NCBI RefSeq assembly: GCF_947496855.1
Contig: NZ_CANMED010000008.1
Location: 202,509 to 266,508 of the forward strand
DNA length: 64,000 nt
Direction: 5' to 3'
DNA from: an uncultured Aquimarina sp.
GTDB lineage: Bacteria > Bacteroidota > Bacteroidia > Flavobacteriales > Flavobacteriaceae
Below are positions 4,924 through 36,482 of the stretch, one piece after another. Position 1 is the first letter of the stretch; each line of letters starts with the position of its first letter. The translations under genes were made by a program, and so were the position numbers. The notes beneath the pieces are model-generated. The model did not search any database and had not been told where the DNA came from. It saw only the letters and a list, made by a program, of their open reading frames with translations.

Positions 4924-7059
4924 ATGACCAGAAAAAATATTCAACATATTACGTTGCGTCCAGAGAGTAAAGCTTCCCATTCATCTTCTGAGAAAGAAAT
5001 ATTTACTACTTCGGAAGGAATTGAAATAAAATCTGAATATAGCAAAGACGATATAAAAAATCTTACCCATCTTAATTTCGTAGCTGGAATACCTCCCTAT
5101 TTGAGAGGCCCCTACTCTACCATGTATGTCAGAAGACCTTGGACTATTAGACAATATGCCGGATTCTCTACTGCAGAAGAAAGTAACGCATTTTATCGTA
5201 GAAATCTTGCGGCAGGTCAAAAAGGACTCTCTGTTGCTTTTGACCTCGCTACACATCGTGGATACGATAGTGATCATGAGAGAGTATTTGGAGATGTGGG
5301 CATGGCTGGAGTAGCAATAGACACGGTAGAAGATATGAAAGTACTCTTTGACCAGATACCATTAGATAAAATGTCTGTCTCTATGACAATGAATGGAGCG
5401 GTTTTACCAATAATGGCTTTTTATATTGTAGCAGCAGAAGAGCAAGGAGTAGATAAAAAATTATTATCAGGAACTATTCAAAATGATATCCTGAAGGAAT
5501 TTATGGTACGTAACACCTATATTTATCCTCCTACTCCATCAATGAGAATCATTAGCGATATTTTTAAATATTGTTCTAAAAACATGCCTAAATTTAATCC
5601 GATAAGTATTTCCGGATACCATATGCAAGAAGCGGGAGCGACTTGTGATATTGAATTGGCATATACATTAGCAGATGGATTAGAATATATAAGAAAAGGA
5701 ATCGAAGCAGGTTTGGATGTTGATTCATTTGCTCCTCGTTTATCATTTTTCTGGGCAATAGGAATGAATCACTTTATGGAAATTGCCAAAATGAGGGCTG
5801 CGCGTATGCTTTGGGCAAAACTTATTAGACAATTCAATCCTAAAAACCCAAAATCACTGATGCTCAGGACTCACTGTCAGACCAGTGGATGGAGTTTAAC
5901 TGCACAGGATCCCTTTAACAATGTAGCCAGAACCTGTATAGAAGCAAGTGCAGCAGCTTTTGGAGGTACCCAAAGTTTGCATACCAATGCATTGGATGAA
6001 GCTATTGCATTACCCACAGACTTCTCTGCTAGAATAGCCAGGAACACGCAAATATACCTTCAGGAAGAAACTCAGATAACGCGTACTGTTGATCCATGGG
6101 CTGGAAGCTATTATGTAGAATCTTTAACAAATGACATAGCAGAAAAAGCCTGGAAACTTATAGAAGAGGTCAAAGAATTAGGAGGAATGACTAAGGCGAT
6201 AGAAGCTGGAATTCCTAAAATGCGCATAGAAGAAGCTGCAGCTCGTAAGCAAGCTAGAATTGATAGTCAACAAGATTTAATTATCGGGGTTAATAAATTT
6301 CAACTAGAAGAAGAAGAATATATCGCTACTCTGAAAGTAGACAATAATGCCGTAAGAAAGCAACAAATTGACGGATTAAAGAAAGTTAAAAATTCTAGAG
6401 ATGAAAAAGCGGTGCAACAAGCACTACTTAATTTAACAAAAGCAACAAAAGATGATGAGAAAAATTTATTAGCTTTAGCCGTGGATGCTTCACGATTAAG
6501 AGCTACCTTAGGAGAAATTAGTGATGCTCTTGAAAAAGAATTTGGAAGATATAAAGCAGAAATTAAATCATTTACAGGAGTGTATGCCAAAGAGATAAAA
6601 AATGATAAGTCTTTTGCCAAAGCAAGAGAATTAGCTAACCAATATGCAGATCTCGAAGGTCGAAGACCTAGAATAATGATTGCAAAAATGGGACAAGACG
6701 GCCACGATCGTGGAGCTAAAGTAGTCGCTACTAGTTATGCTGATGTAGGTTTTGATGTAGATATAGGTCCCTTATTCCAAACTCCAGAAGAAGCTGCAAA
6801 ACAAGCTGTAGAAAATGATGTACATATTGTTGGTGTTTCATCGTTAGCTGGAGGACATAAAACTTTGGTTCCTCAGATTATTGCAGAATTAAAAAAATAC
6901 GAAAGAGAAGACATTATGGTTATTGTAGGCGGAGTCATTCCACCTGATGATTATGAATTTCTATTTCAGGAAGGAGCTGTTGCGATATTTGGTCCAGGAA
7001 CTAAAATAAGTGACGCAGCCATTACTATTCTAGAAATTTTAATTTCGACATTAGAATAA
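4924..7059 (+). CDS. mutB: Methylmalonyl-CoA mutase large (alpha) subunit
   Basis: Catalytic subunit of adenosylcobalamin-dependent methylmalonyl-CoA mutase. Of its 711 residues, the first ~530 form the substrate-binding TIM barrel ([47 protein letters not shown]). The last ~130 form the cobalamin domain with the DxHxxG cobalt-ligand motif as DGHDRG (Asp592, His594, Gly597), followed by [10 protein letters not shown] and [10 protein letters not shown]. Full length for the family. It forms the heterodimer with the product of the gene at 2090. A perfect 28-bp palindrome follows its stop codon. Confidence 0.97.
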
Positions 7060-27527: not shown

Positions 27528-29003
27528 TTACTCAATTACTAGTTGCTCACAAAACTCGGCTCCATCTGGACAAGTATCCGTTTCTGCTCTAATACAAATT
27601 TCATAGGTTCCTGGATCAAATTGGAAAAAGAACATATTATCCCCCTCTTGTCCGCCATCCTGTTCTATAATATCCCCATTTATTTCCCATTGGTAGGTTA
27701 CAGTATCAATATTTTCGAAATTTGCTGTAAAATTATAACTGGGAGTGTTTCCTTCTTGTTCTATTGTAAAAAACAAATTAGGACAAATCGGCTCAACGAT
27801 TATCTCTTTACAAAACTCAGCTCCGTTAGGACAAGAAGGAGTTTCTGTTCTAATGCAAACCACGTGTTCTCCTGGCGATAAATTAGAAAACAACATATTA
27901 TCTCCATTAGCTCCTCCATCATTTTCTATAAGCTCATTATCTATATACCATTGATAATTTAACTCCTCCATATTCGAAAAACTTGATGTAAAAGTATATC
28001 CTAATGTTCCTTGTTCTTGTTCAAAATCAAAAAACAATTCTGGACAAAAAGCAGTAACTTCTATCTGTTTACAAAACGTTATACCCTCAGGGCAATCAGC
28101 AGTTTCAGCTTTTATACAAACTTCATAAGTACCTGGTGAATCAAAATTACGTATCAATACATTATCACCTTGATTATTGGGTCCATCACTCTCTATAAAT
28201 TGACCACCTACAAACCAATCATAAACCCCTACTTCTTCTATATCAGGAAAATCTGCAGTAAACTGATACCCTAAATTAAATTGATCTGTGAGATCAGAAG
28301 TAAAACTTAGGCTCGGACATCTACTTTCGCAAGATTCTATTAGTCTATAAAAACCAAAATATGTTTCTATTGTGTTACTTTCAAAATTCGGAGATACTAA
28401 TACATTAACTGGAAATTTAAAACTGGGCTGATAAGCTGTTCCTTGCTCTTGATAAAAAATTCTAAACGCATCATCTGTTGTAATTTCAGTTTCTTCTCCA
28501 GTCATATTAAAAAAAGTTATTGGATAATCAAACTTAAAGCACCCATTAAAAAATTGGTCAAAGTCATCTCTGATTGTATCGAACTGGCATTCGCTTAAGA
28601 CAGTTAACAAAGCTACCTCATTCGAAATAGATAGCATCGTATCTGTATTTCTAAAAATTATATTAATTGGAAATTCTAATCCTGTGACATTAAAATTAGC
28701 TCCTTGGCTTGAAATCACATCTACTAATCCATCATAACTTTCAATCTTTATGGTAGAATCTGTATTATACCCAAGTGTAATAGGATATACAAATCTAAAA
28801 CATTGTTCATTTTCTGAGAGAAAAGTTGTGGTAGTATCAAAGTTATTAAGAACCGTTACTAGAGCGGCACTTGATATAACATTACCTGTGTTTTCTTCAG
28901 GAAAGAACGAGTCATCAGTAACACAACTACTAAAGAATGATAACATTATCAGTAATGCGTATAACGGTATATATGTGTTGAAATTCTTCAAAATAATTTG
29001 CAT
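27528..29003 (-). CDS. Exported Cys-rich repeat lipoprotein A (three C-terminal repeats)
   Basis: A 491-residue product with lipoprotein signal MLSFFSSC. Residues about 40-230 hold two copies of an unnamed domain, each beginning CF(R/K)FxYPIT, with a FP(I/V)N(I/V) strand, and ending at a Cys (LSEC, IESC). The rest holds three ~90-residue PKD/Ig-like repeats of pattern CPxLxF ... W ... PGTYEVCIKAET.xCPxGxxFC. Four cysteines per repeat suggest two disulfides outside the cytoplasm. An ECF-type promoter element ends only 12 bases before this ATG, so TTG 28991 (MKNFNTY) may be the real start. No enzymatic motif; probably a surface or binding protein. Confidence 0.82.
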   Translation of the reverse strand: MQIILKNFNTYIPLYALLIMLSFFSSCVTDDSFFPEENTGNVISSAALVTVLNNFDTTTTFLSENEQCFRFVYPITLGYNTDSTIKIESYDGLVDVISSQGANFNVTGLEFPINIIFRNTDTMLSISNEVALLTVLSECQFDTIRDDFDQFFNGCFKFDYPITFFNMTGEETEITTDDAFRIFYQEQGTAYQPSFKFPVNVLVSPNFESNTIETYFGFYRLIESCESRCPSLSFTSDLTDQFNLGYQFTADFPDIEEVGVYDWFVGGQFIESDGPNNQGDNVLIRNFDSPGTYEVCIKAETADCPEGITFCKQIEVTAFCPELFFDFEQEQGTLGYTFTSSFSNMEELNYQWYIDNELIENDGGANGDNMLFSNLSPGEHVVCIRTETPSCPNGAEFCKEIIVEPICPNLFFTIEQEGNTPSYNFTANFENIDTVTYQWEINGDIIEQDGGQEGDNMFFFQFDPGTYEICIRAETDTCPDGAEFCEQLVIE

Positions 29004-29014
29004 TTATATAAGTA

Positions 29015-29041
29015 AAACGTCTGAAAATCAGTCTACCCTAC
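29015..29041 (-). promoter_or_regulatory. ECF-type promoter element of repeat gene A
   Basis: Minus strand: GTAGGG (29036-29041), 16 bases, CGTTT (29015-29019) followed by TA. It matches the elements before the other two repeat genes and fecR in sequence and exact spacing. Confidence 0.7.
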
Positions 29042-29109
29042 CTTAAATCAAAATAAATTTTTCAATCTATTTCAATTCACAATCTAATACATCTTACTGG
29101 TATAACCAA

Positions 29110-29145
29110 AATTCCCTGGAAGAATGGCAATGCTTCCAGGGAATT
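29110..29145 (-). terminator. Hairpin terminator after repeat gene B
   Basis: A perfect 13-bp stem, AATTCCCTGGAAG with its complement (29110-29122, 29133-29145), with a 10-base loop. It lies 32 bases beyond the stop codon on the minus strand. The flank beyond the stem is only moderately T-rich. Confidence 0.8.
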
Positions 29146-29176
29146 AACCTAATTAATCTAACCTAACAAAAGTTGT

Positions 29177-30610
29177 TTATTCGATCACTAATGTTTTACA
29201 AAATGTAGTTCCATTAGGACAGTTTGGTGTTTCTGCGGTAATACAGATTTCGTATGTCCCTGATCCGAATTGATAGTATAAATAATCATCTCTATCGTTA
29301 CTACCGATAATTTCTGAGTTTACAACGTCTCCATTGATTGTCCATTCATATGAAACATCATTCATCCCCCCAAATTCTGCCCAGAAATTATATCCAGGAG
29401 TATTTCCTTCTTGTTCAATATTGAAGAATAAATCAGGACAATCATTTTCTGATCCTTCGATTTCTATTACTTTACAAAATGTTACTCCTTCTGGACATTC
29501 TGGAGTTTCTACAGAAAGACATACCTCAAAACTACCTGCACTAAATTGGTAATAAAAAGGATCGTTATGACCTGAACTTGTTCCTATATAATCACCGTTA
29601 ACAGACCACTCTAATGTTACATCATCGATACCTTGAAAAGCGTTTGGATAAAAATAATACGCTAGATTATCACCATCTTGTTCTGCTTCAAAGAATAATT
29701 CTGGACACACAGTAGTATCTCCTTCAATTTCAATAATTTTACAGTAAGATGTTCCTTCTGGACATTCTGGAGTTTCTGTCTTTAAACACACTTCATATCT
29801 TCCAGGAGCAAACTGATAATACAATCTATTGTTATCTCCATTATTTGAATCTTCTACTAATTCTCCATCAATAAACCATCCTAACCACTCGAATTGATCT
29901 GCTCCTTCAAACTCTACTTGAAAATAATATGCTGGATTATCTCCATCTTGTTCAGCAATAAAAAATAATTCAGGACATCCTTCATCTACGTCTGCTTCTG
30001 CTATCTCAATAATCTTACAATAAGAAGTTCCGTTAGGACAATCTGGTGTCTCTGTTTTAATACATACTTCGTAACTACCTGGCTCATTAAATTCCCAAAA
30101 CAAATAATTATTCTCATTTTGGTTATCATTATCTACTACCTCTCCATCTATAAACCACTCATAACGAGTTTCTTCAATTTCTGGAAAGTCTGCTATAAAC
30201 TTATATTTATTTAATCTTTCATATTGTCTTGCTTCAAAAAATAGGTCAGGGCAAGGATCTGTTTCATCAATATCAACCTCAATCTCTTTACATACTTCTA
30301 TAGGGCATGTATCGCTTGCTACTTTTACACAAACAGTATATGTTCCTTCTTCGAATTGATATTCGAAAATCTGATTGGCTATATCATTTAGATTACCAGT
30401 ATCTATTTCTTCTCCATCAATAGACCAAGTAAGCCTTACATCCTCGATACCATCAAATTGAGCTGCAAATCGATACACTGCGCTACCAGAAACATTGTCT
30501 ACATTAATAGTAACATCTGGACAATTTTCTAATTCTTCAATCTCTTCACAAGAAATAAATCCTAACAGTAATGCAAAGATCATTACATACCAAATACTAA
30601 GTTTTTTCAT
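29177..30610 (-). CDS. Exported Cys-rich repeat lipoprotein B (five repeats)
   Basis: A 477-residue product with lipoprotein signal LLLGFISC (Cys21), followed by five tandem repeats of 85-95 residues that fill the mature protein. Each begins CP(D/E)(L/V)xF, has a central W(F/S)(I/V)(D/N)G strand, then G(T/S)(Y/F)EVC(I/L)KxET and CPxGxxxCKxIEI. The repeats resemble PKD/Ig domains with four conserved Cys; repeat 1 lacks the CPxG glycine. No membrane anchor or sorting domain follows the last repeat. Repeat 5 is closest to the last repeat of gene A (shared EQEGNTPxYNF), showing common origin. Confidence 0.83.
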   Translation of the reverse strand: MKKLSIWYVMIFALLLGFISCEEIEELENCPDVTINVDNVSGSAVYRFAAQFDGIEDVRLTWSIDGEEIDTGNLNDIANQIFEYQFEEGTYTVCVKVASDTCPIEVCKEIEVDIDETDPCPDLFFEARQYERLNKYKFIADFPEIEETRYEWFIDGEVVDNDNQNENNYLFWEFNEPGSYEVCIKTETPDCPNGTSYCKIIEIAEADVDEGCPELFFIAEQDGDNPAYYFQVEFEGADQFEWLGWFIDGELVEDSNNGDNNRLYYQFAPGRYEVCLKTETPECPEGTSYCKIIEIEGDTTVCPELFFEAEQDGDNLAYYFYPNAFQGIDDVTLEWSVNGDYIGTSSGHNDPFYYQFSAGSFEVCLSVETPECPEGVTFCKVIEIEGSENDCPDLFFNIEQEGNTPGYNFWAEFGGMNDVSYEWTINGDVVNSEIIGSNDRDDYLYYQFGSGTYEICITAETPNCPNGTTFCKTLVIE

Positions 30611-30678
30611 CTTTCTAATTTTTAGGGGTTGTCAATAATTAATTGTTTGAGAACTTTTTTATAAGTCCTACAATAATG

Positions 30679-30705
30679 AAACGCAGTTGAGAAAAAACAC
30701 CCTAC
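30679..30705 (-). promoter_or_regulatory. ECF-type promoter element of repeat gene B
   Basis: Minus strand: GTAGGG (30700-30705), 16 bases, CGTTT (30679-30683) followed by CA. It lies 69 bases before the start codon. Confidence 0.7.
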
Positions 30706-30763
30706 CCTTTCCTTCAAAAAAAATGTTAATTCTACTACTTTTTTTCCTAAAAAAATTAAATAA

Positions 30764-30793
30764 AATAAGGTCATACATCCATATGACCTTATT
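30764..30793 (-). terminator. Hairpin terminator after repeat gene C
   Basis: A 12-bp stem, AATAAGGTCATA with its complement (30764-30775, 30782-30793), with a 6-base loop; beyond it the minus strand is T-rich. It lies 38 bases after the stop codon. Confidence 0.85.
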
Positions 30794-30830
30794 AATAATA
30801 TTTGAAAAAAAATTGTTTGTTCCTATAAAT

Positions 30831-32255
30831 CTACATTTGATAATCTATCTGAATGCACTTCTCTAAATTACCACAAGTTTGAGAAACTGCTTTATAACAG
30901 ATTTCATATGTCCCTGATTGATTTACATGATCTATAAGCCTTAATACGCGAGGAGTTATAGGCGTAGTAGATGTTCCATTGATTGTCCATACTACAGAAT
31001 TCGGATCAATATCCGTTATAGATAATGCTGTTGCTATAGCAATCTTATCCTCATAGTTTATTACATCAAAAACCGAGCAATCAATACTTTGCGGTTCTGG
31101 TACTACAATACTTGCACAATATTCTGTTCCATTAGGACATTCGTTAGTTTCTGCTTTTATACAAACAGTATATGTCCCAGGGTTATAAGAACTTAAATCT
31201 AACATATCGTCTCTGTCCTGACTCTGTAAACTTTCTGTTTCTACTAATGTACCATCAACGAACCATTCATACACATCTAATTGATCAATTCCAGGAAAAC
31301 TAGCGAACATTAAAGTTCCTTCTTCTATAAATGATACATCTGGACAGTCATCTCCTCCATTATTATCATCTGTTACCTGAACTGATACACACGCCTCGAT
31401 TCCTTGAGAACAATCGTTAGAACTAAATTTTACACAAACTTCATAAGAACCTGGATTGTAATCGCTCAAATCTAATGTCACAACACTACCTTGAACCTGC
31501 AAGTCTTCAGCCGCTACAAGTTGGTTATTCACATACCATTTAAATAAATCGATATCATCGGTACCACTAATTGTAGCAATAACAATGTCTCCTTCTGAAC
31601 TAACCGAAAGATCAGGGCAAGCATCCTGTCCATCTCCATCGATAGTAATCTCTTCGCAATATTCTGTACTAGTACAAGTTGGGCTTTCTGAAATTAAACA
31701 AATACTATATGTTCCTTCTTCTAAATTAGCAAGAGAAAATTTATTATCTCCTTGGTTATCGGTTCCTTCATTCTCAATAATAGTTTCATTACCAAGAGTT
31801 TCTCCAGAAACTTGCCAAGCATAAAATTCTAATGTATCCATACCTTCAAAATCAGCTATTAGGTAATCCCCATCTCTTGTGAATTTTAATTCTGGACAAC
31901 CTTCCATATCTTCTCCTATAACTATCTCTTTACAAAACGCTATACCTGCAGGACAATCTGGTGTTTCTGCTTTGATACAAATAGTATAAGTACCAGGATT
32001 ATATTCTGAAATATCTAATACATTATCACGTTGATTTTCTAAGCTTTCAGTTTCTACCAATTCATCGTTTACAAACCACTCGTAAACGTCTAAACTGTTT
32101 ATTTCTTCAAAATTTGCAATTAATTTTCCACCATCTCTTTCAAAAGATAATTCTGGACACTCTGTATTCGAATCGCTATCATCGCTTTCTTCGCAAGAAA
32201 TAAATGTTAGCATAAGCCCTAGCATAAGTAGGCTAAGAATTTTAAGATTTTTCAT
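30831..32255 (-). CDS. Exported Cys-rich repeat lipoprotein C (five repeats)
   Basis: A 474-residue product with lipoprotein signal LMLTFISC (Cys21) and five repeats of the A/B type, more diverged. Repeats 1, 2 and 4 are clear (CPELSF, CPELKF and CPDVSF starts; VYEWFV cores; PGTYTxCIKAET ends). Repeat 3 loses the CP of its third Cys block (NDCSQG), and repeat 5 starts CSVFDV and ends SQTCGNLEKC. Frequent aspartate and glutamate make it very acidic. It is the gene nearest to, and divergent from, the ECF sigma gene. Confidence 0.83.
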   Translation of the reverse strand: MKNLKILSLLMLGLMLTFISCEESDDSDSNTECPELSFERDGGKLIANFEEINSLDVYEWFVNDELVETESLENQRDNVLDISEYNPGTYTICIKAETPDCPAGIAFCKEIVIGEDMEGCPELKFTRDGDYLIADFEGMDTLEFYAWQVSGETLGNETIIENEGTDNQGDNKFSLANLEEGTYSICLISESPTCTSTEYCEEITIDGDGQDACPDLSVSSEGDIVIATISGTDDIDLFKWYVNNQLVAAEDLQVQGSVVTLDLSDYNPGSYEVCVKFSSNDCSQGIEACVSVQVTDDNNGGDDCPDVSFIEEGTLMFASFPGIDQLDVYEWFVDGTLVETESLQSQDRDDMLDLSSYNPGTYTVCIKAETNECPNGTEYCASIVVPEPQSIDCSVFDVINYEDKIAIATALSITDIDPNSVVWTINGTSTTPITPRVLRLIDHVNQSGTYEICYKAVSQTCGNLEKCIQIDYQM

Positions 32256-32321
32256 TTTAAGATTTTAATTAAAGATTAAGTAAAACTCAATTGAGATATT
32301 TTGTGCGTTATAACACTAGTA

Positions 32322-32348
32322 AAACGTTAATCAATTGCCCTACCCCAC
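32322..32348 (-). promoter_or_regulatory. ECF-type promoter element of repeat gene C
   Basis: Minus strand: GTGGGG (32343-32348), 16 bases, CGTTT (32322-32326) followed by TA. One base differs from the GTAGGG of the other sites. It lies 67 bases before the start codon. Confidence 0.65.
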
Positions 32349-32380
32349 CCCAACTTTTATTTTTTTTATAATTTATTTTT

Positions 32381-32408
32381 TTTGGTATCAGAAAAAAATC
32401 TAGTTTTG
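32381..32408 (+). promoter_or_regulatory. Putative housekeeping promoter of the ECF sigma gene
   Basis: TTTG (32381-32384), 16 bases, TAGTTTTG (32401-32408), a perfect TAnnTTTG -7 element 20 bases before the sigma ATG. The spacing is about three bases shorter than usual. No GTAGGG-N16-CGTTT element precedes this gene, so the sigma gene seems not to be autoregulated through that element. Confidence 0.5.
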
Positions 32409-32428
32409 ACACTAAATTAATCCCCCAA

Positions 32429-32950
32429 ATGTCTGACAGTAAAAACTCTACTTGTGATGAACAAGCCTTTAATCAATTTTTCAAAAGTCATGCTAAACTT
32501 TTGAGGAGTTATCTATACTATAAATTTGGAGATCTTGATCAGGCGGAAGATATCGTGCAAGATTCTTTTATTAAATTATGGAATAATTGTGCAAAGGTCC
32601 CTTTAGACAAAGCAAAAAGTTATGTATATACGATTGCTACTAATTTGGGAATTAGTATTGCAAGACATCAACAAGTAAAGTTTAAACATCAAAAATATAT
32701 TACACAAAGAAAAAGTGATGTAACTAATGAATCTCCAGAGTTTGTTATGCTTGAAAAAGAATACATGGAGAAGCTAAAAAATGCTATAGCTGATTTACCC
32801 GATAGACAACGTGAAGTTTTTTTACTAAGTAGAATTGATAAAAAAACATATAGAGAAATTGCCGAGTTATCGAATGTATCGGTAAAAGCAATAGAAAAAC
32901 TAATGCACAAAGCTTTAGTGACTTTAAGAAAAAAAATTGGAAATATTTAA
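32429..32950 (+). CDS. ECF RNA polymerase sigma factor (FecI-like)
   Basis: A 173-residue extracytoplasmic-function sigma factor with only regions 2 and 4. Region 2 has LLRSYLYYKFGDLDQAEDI and VQDSFIKLWNN (-10 recognition); region 4 has LPDRQREVFLLSRIDKKTYREIAELS and SVKAIEKLMHKALVTLRKK as the -35-binding helix-turn-helix. The fecR-type gene and TonB-transducer gene follow, the standard Bacteroidota trio. The element GTAGGG-N16-CGTTT between this gene and fecR, and before the three repeat genes, is its most likely target. That is inference from co-location and shared spacing. Confidence 0.93.
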   Translation: MSDSKNSTCDEQAFNQFFKSHAKLLRSYLYYKFGDLDQAEDIVQDSFIKLWNNCAKVPLDKAKSYVYTIATNLGISIARHQQVKFKHQKYITQRKSDVTNESPEFVMLEKEYMEKLKNAIADLPDRQREVFLLSRIDKKTYREIAELSNVSVKAIEKLMHKALVTLRKKIGNI

Positions 32951-32957
32951 AACAAAG

Positions 32958-32984
32958 GTAGGGTAATAACCAACTTAAACGTTT
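32958..32984 (+). promoter_or_regulatory. ECF-type promoter element of the fecR-transducer operon
   Basis: GTAGGG (32958-32963), 16 bases, CGTTT (32980-32984), 20 bases before the fecR ATG and starting 7 bases after the sigma-gene stop. It has the same sequence and spacing as the three elements on the minus strand. Confidence 0.7.
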
Positions 32985-33004
32985 CTATTATATATAAGCA
33001 GATT

Positions 33005-33925
33005 ATGTTTGACGATAAAAAAGATGATATATTCTTATCTAGATGGGTTAATGGAGATCTTTCTCCTGAGGAACTTAATGAGTTTCAGTCTCATCCGGAA
33101 TACGAATATTATATGAAGATTTTAGCTGGTGCCGATACTTTAGATTTAACGGAGTATGATGTAGATACTGCTTTACGTAACATAAAATCAAATAAACAAA
33201 CTTCTTCCAATAAAACCTCTAAACCGGTTATTAAACTTTGGCCCTATTTAGCTGTAGCGGCTTCTATTGCAATTATATTTGGTTTATTTTTATTCAATAC
33301 TAATGACTCTTTTGCGACTTCTTATGGCGAACAATTAACAGTAATATTACCGGATGGTTCTGAAATGATACTAAATGCTAAGTCTGAGGCAAGTTTCGAT
33401 AAAAACAATTGGGATGCCAATCGAAACATATCCTTAGAGGGCGAAGCTTATTTTAAGGTAAAAAAAGGAAGTAAATTTACTGTTACTACTAAAAATGGGG
33501 ATGTCTCTGTATTAGGAACTCAATTTAATGTGCAATCACAAGCTTCATTTTTTGAAGCAGTTTGCTATGAAGGTAAGGTGAGTGTTACAAGTAAACAAGA
33601 GAATACAATTCTTACTGCCGGAAAAGCATACAGAAACATTACAAATACACCCCCTGAACATTGGACATTTGTAGCACAAGAACCTTCCTGGATTACTAAC
33701 ACTAGTTCGTTTAGAAGTGTGCCTTTACATTATGTTTTTAAAGAGCTAGAAGATCAATACAACATCTCCATAAATATAAAGAATCCAGATATAAATATCA
33801 ACACAATTTATACTGGAACTTTTCCTAATAATGACATGAACATTGCTCTTAAAACAGTTTTTAGTACCTTAGGTTTGCAATACCAACTATTGCAAAATGG
33901 TAAGACCGTGGTAGTAGAAAATTAA
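33005..33925 (+). CDS. FecR-type anti-sigma factor
   Basis: A 306-residue inner-membrane sigma regulator. A cytoplasmic N-terminal anti-sigma segment (DDIFLSRWVNGDLSPEELNEF), one membrane span at about residues 79-97 (WPYLAVAASIAIIFGLFLF), then the periplasmic FecR domain (LPDGSEMILNAKSEASFD, NISLEGEAYFKV, VLGTQFNVQS). The C-terminal DUF4974/STN-like region (SFRSVPLHYVFKELEDQYNISI) probably contacts the transducer. It lies 54 bases after the sigma gene, with an ECF-type promoter between them, and 4 bases before the receptor gene. Confidence 0.93.
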   Translation: MFDDKKDDIFLSRWVNGDLSPEELNEFQSHPEYEYYMKILAGADTLDLTEYDVDTALRNIKSNKQTSSNKTSKPVIKLWPYLAVAASIAIIFGLFLFNTNDSFATSYGEQLTVILPDGSEMILNAKSEASFDKNNWDANRNISLEGEAYFKVKKGSKFTVTTKNGDVSVLGTQFNVQSQASFFEAVCYEGKVSVTSKQENTILTAGKAYRNITNTPPEHWTFVAQEPSWITNTSSFRSVPLHYVFKELEDQYNISINIKNPDININTIYTGTFPNNDMNIALKTVFSTLGLQYQLLQNGKTVVVEN

Positions 33926-33929
33926 GAGC

Positions 33930-36482
33930 ATGACTAGATTCTTTTGTGTATGCATATTTTTGTGGAATATAGCTGTTTTTTCACAGGAAAAAGCAACTAT
34001 AATTGATGCAAAAAACTATCCCTTATCACAAATAATTCCATCTTTAGAAAAACAATTCAATGTAAAGTTCTCATATATTGATGTAACTATCATTAATAAA
34101 TTAGTCTCTTTACAGACTAATACCGAAACTAGTATAAAAGATGTTCTTGATAGTCTGGAACAACAATCCAAATTAAAGTTTGAAGTCACGGGAGAAAATT
34201 TTATTACCATTAGAAAATATTCTAAAAAGGATACTGTTACTGTCTGTGGTTATATTTATAATGAAAACTCAGAACCACTAGAAAAAATTCGTGTTTTTTT
34301 TAAAGCTTCCAGAACCAATATTACTACAAACGAAAAAGGGTATTTTGAGAATGAAGAAATACCTTTTAATTCAGCAATTTTGATAAGTGCTCCAGGCTTT
34401 CGGCAGAAAGTATTAAACACTTCAGAATTTGTTAGTAAAAACAATTGTATAAAGATCTACCTTACGAATACAATTGAAACACTGGATGAAGTGGTTATCC
34501 AAGAATACCTTACCAAAGGGATTACTCAAAACAAAAAAGTAGTAAATATTGATCTAAAAGATATTGAGATACTACCAGGTCTTACGGAACCAGATATTTT
34601 GCAAAGTGTTCAATTGACCCCCGGTGTTAATAGTCCGTTCGAGACAGCATCTGGATTATACGTCCGTGGTAGCACTCCTAATCAAAACTTAGTCCTTTGG
34701 AACGGTATCAAAACATACCATCAGGGTCATTTCTTCGGAATGCTATCTGCATTTAACCCTTATGTGGTTAAAGAAATAGATTTTTCTAAAAGTGGTGTAA
34801 GTGCTAAATACGGAGATAGGATCTCAGGTGTGATAGATATCAAAACTGAAAATGAAGTTGCAGAACATTTTACAGGAGGAGCCGGTTTTAATATGATCAA
34901 TGCAGATGCTGTTGTTCACGCTCCTATTATAAAGGATAAAGTGTCATTACAAGTCTCTGGAAGAAGATCATATACAGATCTTTTAGAAACATTTACCTAT
35001 AAAAAATTTGCAGATCGTGTTTTTCAGAACACAACTATCGCAGAAACTAACCCGCTTAATGAAGCTACAAATGATTTTTTTTATGGTGATTATAATGCTA
35101 ACCTAATTGCCAATATTTCTGATTTTGATAAAATTGAAGCGAATGCTTTATACAGCAAAAATGATCTCGACTTTAAGCGAAGTGATGATCTTATGTCTTT
35201 TAATGATCATTTAATTACTGAAAATGAAGGATATAACCTTAGTTGGAAACATAAATCAAATAATGGACTTAAGATTAAAACCAGTGGGTATTATACAAGA
35301 TATTTATTAAACTATCAGTTTATTACTGGAGCGTCTGGAAGTACTATAGAAACAGAAAGTAAGAAAAATAGTGTAAAAGACTTAGGAGCAGCCTTAGACC
35401 TCACTTATTCGTTATCTGATAATCATACTGTTCTGGGAGGATATCAATTTTCCAACAATACTATCAAGTATGCATTTGTAACGACTACACCAACCTATGA
35501 ATTAATTCTGGATCAAGATGATCGTCTTCTAAATACACACGCAATCTATGGTGAATACAAATACGAGGCTCCTCAAAACTTTTATCTTTCTGTCGGACTA
35601 CGCTTGAATAACTACGCTGAATTAGATAAATCATTTGTAGAACCTAGAGTTTTTGTACAAAAAAACTTATCAAAGTATTGGGAAGTTAATGCCACAGGAG
35701 AATATCGAAGTCAAGCTGTTAGCCAAATTAGAGAATCCGTTGTTAGTGATCTATCCTTAGAAAATCAAGTTTGGACATTAGCTAACAAAGAACAATTTCC
35801 TGTAATCACTAGTTATCAATTTACTTTGGGAAGTAGTTTTAAAAAAAATAAATGGTATTTTGATGTAGACACCTATTATAAGCAAATAGATGATATTACA
35901 TCACTTACAGCAGGTTTTATTAATCCAATTGATAACACCTATCATAATGGTGAAAGCAGGGTTTATGGAATTGATTTTTTTCTAAAGAAGCATTTTAAAA
36001 ACTATAAAACTTGGGTTAGCTATTCATACATCAATACTAAAAATAAATTTGATGGTATCAACAATAACGAATCTTTTCCTGGCAACTGGAATATAGAGCA
36101 TACAGTAAAATGGTCTCATTTTTATAAGATCAATAATTTTCAGTTTTCTTTAGGTTGGCTTTGGCATACCGGTAAAGCGTTCACCAATGTTGCTGGAGTT
36201 GATGAAAGTGGGAATCTGGTATTATTAGATTTCGGAGAAATCAACGGGAATAATTTACCCATTTATCATAGGTTGGACTTCTCCGCTATTTATGATTTTA
36301 AAATAAAATCAACTTCTAATATTAAATATCGATTAGGGCTTTCTGTTCTGAATCTATATGATAGAGAAAACTTACTTAATAGAGAATTCAGAACTACTAA
36401 TTCATTAAATAATCGTTTTGTAAATTCGGATATTGTTGCTTTGGGAATTACTCCTAATATCAGTTTTAGAGTATTTTGGTAG
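33930..36482 (+). CDS. TonB-dependent outer-membrane transducer with STN domain
   Basis: An 850-residue receptor. Signal peptide (1-18, ending AVFSQ), STN signalling domain (about 20-86, PLSQIIPSLEKQFNVKFSY), carboxypeptidase-like regulatory domain (about 107-185), TonB plug (DILQSVQLTPGVNS, GLYVRGSTPNQNLVLWNGI, KYGDRISGVIDIKTEN) and a 22-strand-type barrel ending in Trp. STN-bearing receptors pass ligand status through FecR to the sigma factor. There is no SusD gene next to it, so it is not a standard glycan-uptake pair. The ligand is unknown. It probably shares a transcript with fecR. Confidence 0.92.
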   Translation: MTRFFCVCIFLWNIAVFSQEKATIIDAKNYPLSQIIPSLEKQFNVKFSYIDVTIINKLVSLQTNTETSIKDVLDSLEQQSKLKFEVTGENFITIRKYSKKDTVTVCGYIYNENSEPLEKIRVFFKASRTNITTNEKGYFENEEIPFNSAILISAPGFRQKVLNTSEFVSKNNCIKIYLTNTIETLDEVVIQEYLTKGITQNKKVVNIDLKDIEILPGLTEPDILQSVQLTPGVNSPFETASGLYVRGSTPNQNLVLWNGIKTYHQGHFFGMLSAFNPYVVKEIDFSKSGVSAKYGDRISGVIDIKTENEVAEHFTGGAGFNMINADAVVHAPIIKDKVSLQVSGRRSYTDLLETFTYKKFADRVFQNTTIAETNPLNEATNDFFYGDYNANLIANISDFDKIEANALYSKNDLDFKRSDDLMSFNDHLITENEGYNLSWKHKSNNGLKIKTSGYYTRYLLNYQFITGASGSTIETESKKNSVKDLGAALDLTYSLSDNHTVLGGYQFSNNTIKYAFVTTTPTYELILDQDDRLLNTHAIYGEYKYEAPQNFYLSVGLRLNNYAELDKSFVEPRVFVQKNLSKYWEVNATGEYRSQAVSQIRESVVSDLSLENQVWTLANKEQFPVITSYQFTLGSSFKKNKWYFDVDTYYKQIDDITSLTAGFINPIDNTYHNGESRVYGIDFFLKKHFKNYKTWVSYSYINTKNKFDGINNNESFPGNWNIEHTVKWSHFYKINNFQFSLGWLWHTGKAFTNVAGVDESGNLVLLDFGEINGNNLPIYHRLDFSAIYDFKIKSTSNIKYRLGLSVLNLYDRENLLNREFRTTNSLNNRFVNSDIVALGITPNISFRVFW

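Follow-up and report, generated by a model that had tools for sequence, protein, structure and literature searches.

Which genes answer to a surface-signalling sigma factor whose neighbours encode repeat lipoproteins instead of iron uptake proteins? The question is raised by a 64,000-nt stretch of an uncultured Aquimarina sp. genome (G000:C8:202509-266508, hereafter the window; G+C 32.7%; genome 5.83 Mb in 50 contigs; genomes, contigs and loci carry our labels G, C and L). Here an extracytoplasmic function (ECF) sigma factor, a FecR-type anti-sigma factor and a TonB-dependent transducer lie beside three divergent lipoprotein genes, LP1-LP3 (Table 1). In the FecIRA and FoxIRA systems a sigma-dependent promoter precedes the receptor genes, and a promoter element before the fecR-receptor operon would be its counterpart in the window. 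These systems of E. coli and Pseudomonas share with the window an ECF sigma, a FecR-type anti-sigma and a TonB-dependent receptor with an N-terminal signalling domain (PMC11637429). They differ from it in their output, an iron uptake operon as opposed to three repeat lipoproteins, and in that the window's anti-sigma gene itself appears to lie behind a sigma-dependent promoter, while the sigma gene has a housekeeping-type one. What we describe is FecIRA-like signalling with unusual outputs. Judging from the elements, their conservation, matched promoter pairs, the sigma-gene promoter and protein domains, we put at roughly 0.86 the probability that this is a surface signalling module whose private promoters drive LP1-LP3, FecR and the transducer.

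A promoter element concentrated in one gene cluster

The pattern GTRGGG-N16-CGTTT occurs exactly four times in the window, where 0.04 occurrences are expected, and none of 100 shuffles reached four. The original prediction had placed three of them upstream of the Cys-rich repeat genes and the fourth before fecR, and they were found at those places and on those strands, the fourth within the 54-bp gap between sigma and fecR. All four carry GTRGGGT, and a relaxed scan of the window with spacings of 15-17 found no extra site. The predicted rarity held in the whole genome as well: of eight exact matches, four fall inside this 4-kb stretch, and since the reversed control pattern also occurs four times genome-wide, the scattered matches are at background level. 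Freeing the last T and fixing the seventh base (GTRGGGT-N15-CGTT) left seven genomic matches, four of them in the cluster (control, 2). For LP1 the element stood where expected, but the start of the gene did not: the ORF-finder's ATG lies 11 bases past the element, whereas the reading frame of relatives leads to a TTG at 28991. Read by eye, this TTG is the likely true start, which would give LP1 a leader like that of fecR.

Conservation across ortholog loci

Searching the other 32 genomes of the genus gave FecR orthologs (51-82% identity) in 23, and a search of 23 genomes from other families of the order gave no match at 1e-20. The gene order LP1-LP2-(LP3)-sigma-fecR-receptor is kept in most of the 23 loci, with ndk close downstream in 21; LP1 was undetected in L058 and L062, LP2 in L068 and the sigma ORF in L067. 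Of 75 promoter regions in these loci, 72 have the element with its spacing unchanged (counts per gene in Table 1) and 74 have it when the spacing may vary by up to 2; none has the reversed control pattern. The exceptions are fecR of L068, with one extra spacer base, LP1 of L066, where the element occurs at altered spacing only, and LP1 of L068, which has no element. GTRGGG and CGTT are constant, while the fifth -10 base drifts (T, C or A). Such conservation, together with rarity in the genome, suggests that the predicted regulon, the fecR-receptor operon plus the three lipoprotein genes, is a real one. In L057, a small ORF of 126 aa (L057:8538-8918, +, oriented coordinates) lies between sigma and fecR, and the fecR element is retained downstream of it.

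That conservation extends beyond CGTT would also be seen if the words were bound by an activator protein or formed part of an mRNA leader. We find this hardly tenable, as the two blocks keep a nearly invariant -35/-10 distance, are strand-specific and lie 11 to 68 bases upstream of the starts annotated in the window, while the element also precedes ORF-less small RNAs and the -10 class tracks sigma region 2.4 residues (both below).

The original prediction had the sigma factor activating its own fecR-receptor operon, which has the element. The sigma gene itself does not carry it: the 100 bases upstream of sigma are free of the element in all 22 orthologs. What precedes the sigma gene in the window and in 18 of 22 orthologs is TTTG-N16/19-TAnnTTTG, for which mononucleotide shuffles predict 0.09 occurrences in all (L047, L048, L052 and L069 are unmatched); TAnnTTTG is the -7 box of flavobacterial sigmaA (PMC9723704). 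With a housekeeping-type promoter present and no element, the sigma factor apparently drives its anti-sigma, the transducer and the lipoproteins, not itself.

A family of modules with matched promoters

From the 132 FecR matches in the genus we analysed the window, its 23 orthologs and 69 others, ranked above the remaining 39. A sigma ORF lies beside fecR in 90 of these 92 further loci, and NT(A/G)GGGT-N15-NGT(T/A) was found in 73 of the 90 modules: 21 of 22 orthologs and 52 of 68 others, which share the -35 and the spacing and have module-specific -10 words. The element stands in the sigma-fecR gap in 57 modules, before sigma in 14, and before the divergent gene in 61 of the 72 modules having one; where sigma and fecR are at most 20 bases apart (14 modules), 10 have it before sigma instead.

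Paired promoters agree within modules. The base before GT(T/A) is the same in 56 of 58 two-promoter modules (C-C 20, T-T 32, G-G 4; G-T 2), where shuffles average 26.1 and 0 of 20,000 reach 56, the modules being related and hence not independent events. In a sigma tree the CGTT/CGTA side forms one branch, GGTT one clade nested in TGTT, and TGTA one clade (each 100/100); changes of -10 class map to few branches. Among genomes of the family's other genera, sampled at one per genus, 104 of 148 have a FecR relative at E 1e-25. A sigma gene was found in 28 of the 29 top loci, and 23 of these show the element, 22 with the -35 at exact spacing and L149 only with shorter spacing and a poor -35. Promoter pairs agree in 16 of 17 cases there, and by eye TGTC recurs at the same distance on both sides in L140, L143, L151 and L160.

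A shared -35 and spacing in most paralogous modules is also what a general ECF promoter would give, one read by several FecI-like sigmas so that overlapping sigmas, and not the neighbour alone, co-regulate the cluster; in Flavobacterium psychrophilum, several ECF sigmas may share one CGT-type motif (PMC9723704). That motif, SM6, differs from ours in its genes, parts of the type IX secretion system (T9SS) and others under low nutrients, and the main text of that paper contains neither FecR nor TAGGG. We consider a general promoter quite improbable, given the within-module -10 agreement and the few CGTT matches where a C-class sigma is absent, though T-class sigmas are present in several such genomes. 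In addition, of the three paralogs read in the window genome, its stronger FecR relatives, only L070 has an element and it uses TGTT, while L071 and L072 show none.

The divergent genes of paralogous modules differ (oriented coordinates). L102:2273-3850 and L126:2253-3821 encode a membrane protein with what we take to be a transglutaminase-type domain fused to membrane helices, L090:2689-3681 a lipoprotein with a presumed metalloprotease-like motif (HEFGH), and L083:256-3639 a 1127-residue repeat protein with a tail that we assume to be T9SS-like.

Sigma residues that accompany the -10 class

The -10 class is accompanied by residues of sigma region 2.4. The 24 C-class sigmas have Gly74 (24), Ile75 (23), Ser76 (24) and Arg79 (24); the 38 T-class sigmas have Asn76 (38) and mostly Ala79 (24; Arg79 in 3); the four G-class sigmas have Asn76 and Glu79. 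B. subtilis SigW, whose -10 is CGTA, aligns NLTIDRIRKK at this place. Residues 75 and 76 of the window sigma presumably correspond to I91 and N92 of Mycobacterium tuberculosis sigmaH. These two sigmaH residues contact the -11 pair of its GTT -10, which is read by region 2 residues and a specificity loop (PMC6411747). A GTT -10 is common to both; the difference from the -10 reading of sigmaH and of E. coli sigmaE is that in the window's family modules differ in the base before GTT, and sigma residues 75-79 change along with it.

We compared this residue rule with the elements of the 30 best-ranked sigmas of a longer list, 24 of which come from genomes outside rule-making (G056-G074). Among these 24, 16 are C-type, and all 15 of those with an element read C; the single Glu79 sigma goes with GGTT on either side, the two with Asn76/Ala79 go with TGTT, and five others show no element. 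The rule thus matched 18 of 18 informative modules, which, being mostly orthologs, show consistency and not independent invention. A code of position 79 alone was rejected because of the three T-class sigmas with Arg79.

Promoter matches follow the sigma class across genomes. The 43 of 52 genus genomes that have a C-class sigma hold 184 GTRGGGT-N15-CGTTT matches (control 35; 4.3 per genome), and the nine that lack it hold 9 (control 1; 1.0 per genome). The Mann-Whitney p of 2.5e-5 (52 genomes) is only a guide, because the genomes are related.

Several observations weigh against a private promoter read through these residues. The four exact genomic matches outside the cluster equal the reversed control count; 16 of 90 genus modules have no recognisable element and one more has an AGTT form only; the related modules L117 and L124 carry unlike -10 words, and L146, from another genus, pairs C against T. 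Of the nine matches in genomes without the C class, four sit unexplained in G073. The C and T classes can be told apart at 26 sigma columns; statistics alone would not pick out the region 2.4 residues, which were chosen for their position. The residues have exceptions too: Arg79 in three T-class sigmas, a C-class sigma without Gly74, and a sigma combining Ser76 with Ala79 for which no element is seen.

Small RNAs behind the promoter in relatives

The switch had been predicted to be local. The cluster genes do carry the element, but in relatives the promoter also heads distant genes and small RNAs (sRNAs). In G002, G019 and G026 it precedes a conserved ORF-less stretch. This candidate sRNA, sRNA-C, is about 75 nt long, terminator-ended and placed behind GTAGGGT-N15-CGTT, as in L213 (G026:C18:647939-648059, +) and 14 further genomes. 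A DNA search at E 0.001 recovered it from 18 of the 52 genus genomes; the element is there in 15, at exact spacing in 14, and three of the four weakest matches (L227, L228, L230) have no element and were left out. G023, a genome 89% complete, has one extra spacer base and alone among the 15 yielded no C-class sigma. In the stem that precedes the U-run, 92.6% of cells are paired and 7 of 11 pairs changed on both sides (3 of 500 shuffles as high); its covariation score was reached by none of 500 shuffles, and its count of pair types is ordinary (209 of 500). It has no Rfam match, and the DNA search did not find it in the window genome. The E. coli sRNAs MicA and RybB are sigmaE-dependent, with an ECF promoter before a terminator-ended transcript; sRNA-C has promoter and terminator in common with them and was found in relatives only.

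Predicted pairing of sRNA-C with the fecR start was the best of 10-40 start regions compared in 6 of 11 genomes; in G016 a run of 17 pairs was counted by eye. With dinucleotide-shuffled sRNA as the control, p lay at 0.017-0.12 in eight genomes and at 0.41-0.81 in three, before correction for target number, and we do not claim fecR as its target. Start regions of paralogous fecR genes can pair with it too, for example L080 (G019) and L105 (G001).

A different candidate sRNA in G027 stands in four tandem copies of the same promoter plus a conserved sequence, about 170 bp apart (L191:1462-1998, +; G027:C6:170961-171497). Copies 1-3 end in a strong inverted repeat and a T-run, the fourth has no terminator, and two copies that were folded gave z of -4.9 and -3.6.

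In the window genome, the outlying match on C7 (G000:C7:110676-110702, -; L188:2177-2203) is intergenic, has no ORF behind it and is conserved in close relatives; 15 of 52 genomes match, four by short weak hits alone. It was first read as a small RNA, a reading we dropped, as only the distal half is conserved, in 6 genomes. Because a 433-residue gene sits between promoter and distal half in G017, and the distal half alone is conserved, the site more probably marks where a target gene was lost. The outlying match on C5 lies within a 288-codon open reading frame, and C13 (L079) has two near-identical ones (325-351 and 6074-6100) near both ends of a 6.2-kb contig. Words resembling the C13 pair occur in G002 and G073, possibly as a repeat.

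Products of the cluster

Table 1. Features of the signalling cluster in window coordinates.
Feature	Position	Strand	Evidence
LP1 lipoprotein	27528..29003	-	lipobox SSC-VTDDSFFP, similar in orthologs; Pfam PKD_3 35.0 bits (cut-off 26.3)
LP1 candidate ECF promoter element, GTAGGGT-N15-CGTTT	29015..29041	-	present in 19/21 ortholog loci having LP1
LP2 lipoprotein, five Cys-rich PKD/Ig-like repeats	29177..30610	-	Pfam, alignment
LP2 candidate ECF promoter element	30679..30705	-	present in 22/22 ortholog loci having LP2
LP3 lipoprotein, about five Cys-rich Ig-like repeats	30831..32255	-	Pfam
LP3 candidate ECF promoter element, GTGGGGT form	32322..32348	-	present in 9/9 ortholog loci having LP3
Putative housekeeping (sigmaA-type) promoter of sigma gene, TTTG-N16-TAGTTTTG	32381..32408	+	window and 18/22 orthologs
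ECF sigma factor, regions 2 and 4; region 2.4 word NLGISIARH	32429..32950	+	Pfam
Candidate ECF promoter element of fecR-transducer operon	32958..32984	+	present in 22/23 orthologs
FecR anti-sigma factor	33005..33925	+	short N-terminal part, one membrane span (~78-96), FecR and FecR_C domains
TonB-dependent transducer	33930..36482	+	signal peptide, FecR_C/STN-like signalling domain (28-92), CarbopepD_reg-like domain, plug, barrel

The sigma protein (173 aa) has Pfam regions 2 and 4 only (Sigma70_r2 43.2 bits, Sigma70_r4_2 54.6 bits). FecR (FecR 70.0 bits, FecR_C 35.4 bits) has a single strong hydrophobic span at 78 and would thus have a cytoplasmic N-terminal part, one span and a periplasmic FecR domain. 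The signalling domain of the transducer is of the FecR_C type (35.0 bits, cut-off 24.4); the STN profile stays below its cut-off (16.1 against 28.4 bits) and CarbopepD_reg_2 slightly so (30.0 against 32.2).

LP1-LP3 match PKD_3 or Y_Y_Y above the Pfam cut-off. LP1 consists of an N-terminal domain present twice (read by eye, assigned to no family) and three four-Cys PKD/Ig-like repeats, and four Cys are invariant in four of the five LP2 repeats (9 aligned sequences). LP3 also matches Por_Secre_tail at residues 333-371 of 474, which, being internal and not at the protein end, we attribute to cross-matching of one repeat. Queried with LP3, the window genome shows its repeats only within the three lipoprotein genes. 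An LP2 search among close relatives recovered 8 named loci, all Aquimarina (62-91% identity), and its profile found nothing at E 1e-10 in the other 148 of the 149 family genomes sampled. Ortholog length, and hence repeat number, varies (LP2 205-583 residues, LP3 384-492). The predicted structures are all-beta repeats with a mean pLDDT of 60 (LP1) and 63 (LP2); Foldseek with the LP1 model returned mainly generic FnIII/Ig arrays at low TM-scores, and a sequence search with LP2 found no solved-structure relative.

Each of the 52 LP rows from the 23 loci can be matched to a loose lipobox pattern, and 51 have 2-5 acidic residues within eight positions after the lipobox Cys, the exception (L067 LP2) being a misplaced match. 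Such residues resemble the export signals SDDFE/SDDDD (PMC5080379). LP1-LP3 are probably exported to the cell surface, as lipobox and acidic residues fit surface display.

Could the transducer module instead serve mainly for nutrient uptake, like a polysaccharide utilisation locus, with the lipoproteins as ligand-capturing receptor partners? Eight of the 23 ortholog loci (L055, L056, L058-L061, L063, L069) have a SusC/SusD-like pair, a likeness read from the translations of one pair, inserted between LP1 and LP2, and glycan loci of Bacteroides, in the same phylum, are governed by similar sigma/anti-sigma systems with the same anti-sigma type and receptor-coupled signalling (PMC3878776). These inserted SusC-like genes, however, lack the element in all 8 cases, and neither the window cluster nor the other 15 loci showed a SusD gene. 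Among the cluster genes scanned with Pfam there is neither a SusD-type partner nor a polymer-breakdown enzyme, so that the cluster does not look like a SusCD polysaccharide utilisation locus; in contrast to the Bacteroides loci, its receptor is an 850-residue transducer without SusD and its targets are lipoproteins. We regard nutrient uptake as conceivable but rather unlikely.

Proposed mechanism

In the mechanism we favour, private signalling to surface lipoproteins, the sigma gene would be transcribed from its housekeeping-type promoter and FecR would hold the sigma factor at the inner membrane. When a ligand engages the outer-membrane transducer, FecR would let go of sigma, which could then direct polymerase to GTRGGGT-N15-CGTT promoters. 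The element inside the sigma factor's own operon would raise FecR and the transducer, providing negative feedback and re-arming the sensor, and the other three would drive LP1-LP3, probably exported to the surface. The -35 and spacing are common to the paralogous family, and the base just before GTT (C here, T or G elsewhere) with its neighbours would make the promoter private. The elements, their conservation, the matched pairs, the sigma-gene promoter and the domain make-up are seen in the sequence; what we infer is that these promoters are read by this sigma, which way the signal runs, and the surface display. By analogy, the receptor's signalling domain may shield the anti-sigma from proteolysis until the signal, as in Pseudomonas (PMC11637429).

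Evenly poised, in our estimation, is the broader proposition that Flavobacteriaceae keep such paralogous modules apart by a specificity code. The -35 and spacer would be common, and sigma region 2.4 would determine the leading base of each module's private -10: C with Ile75/Ser76/Arg79, G with Asn76 and Glu79, T with Asn76 and mostly Ala79. In some members of the genus the C-class sigma would also have recruited a conserved small RNA output, a Bacteroidota counterpart of sigmaE-driven sRNAs.

Significance

Judged by titles and the beginnings of abstracts, none of the literature matches listed describes this -10 code or module, though a published ECF group motif may exist; a search for GTAGGGT with sigma listed no Bacteroidota promoter paper. 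A 2013 study of Bacteroides regulons considered predicting ECF-controlled promoters challenging and start-site data necessary (PMC3878776). Here comparison alone yielded a likely promoter for a FecI-like sigma, including the -35, the spacer and the -10 base that discriminates. Because it can be read in this way, the regulons of many flavobacterial sigma/FecR/receptor modules could become predictable. If the code is true, it would provide a natural set of orthogonal sigma-promoter pairs, and the function of the surface lipoproteins, found in this genus only, and of an ECF-driven small RNA becomes directly testable.

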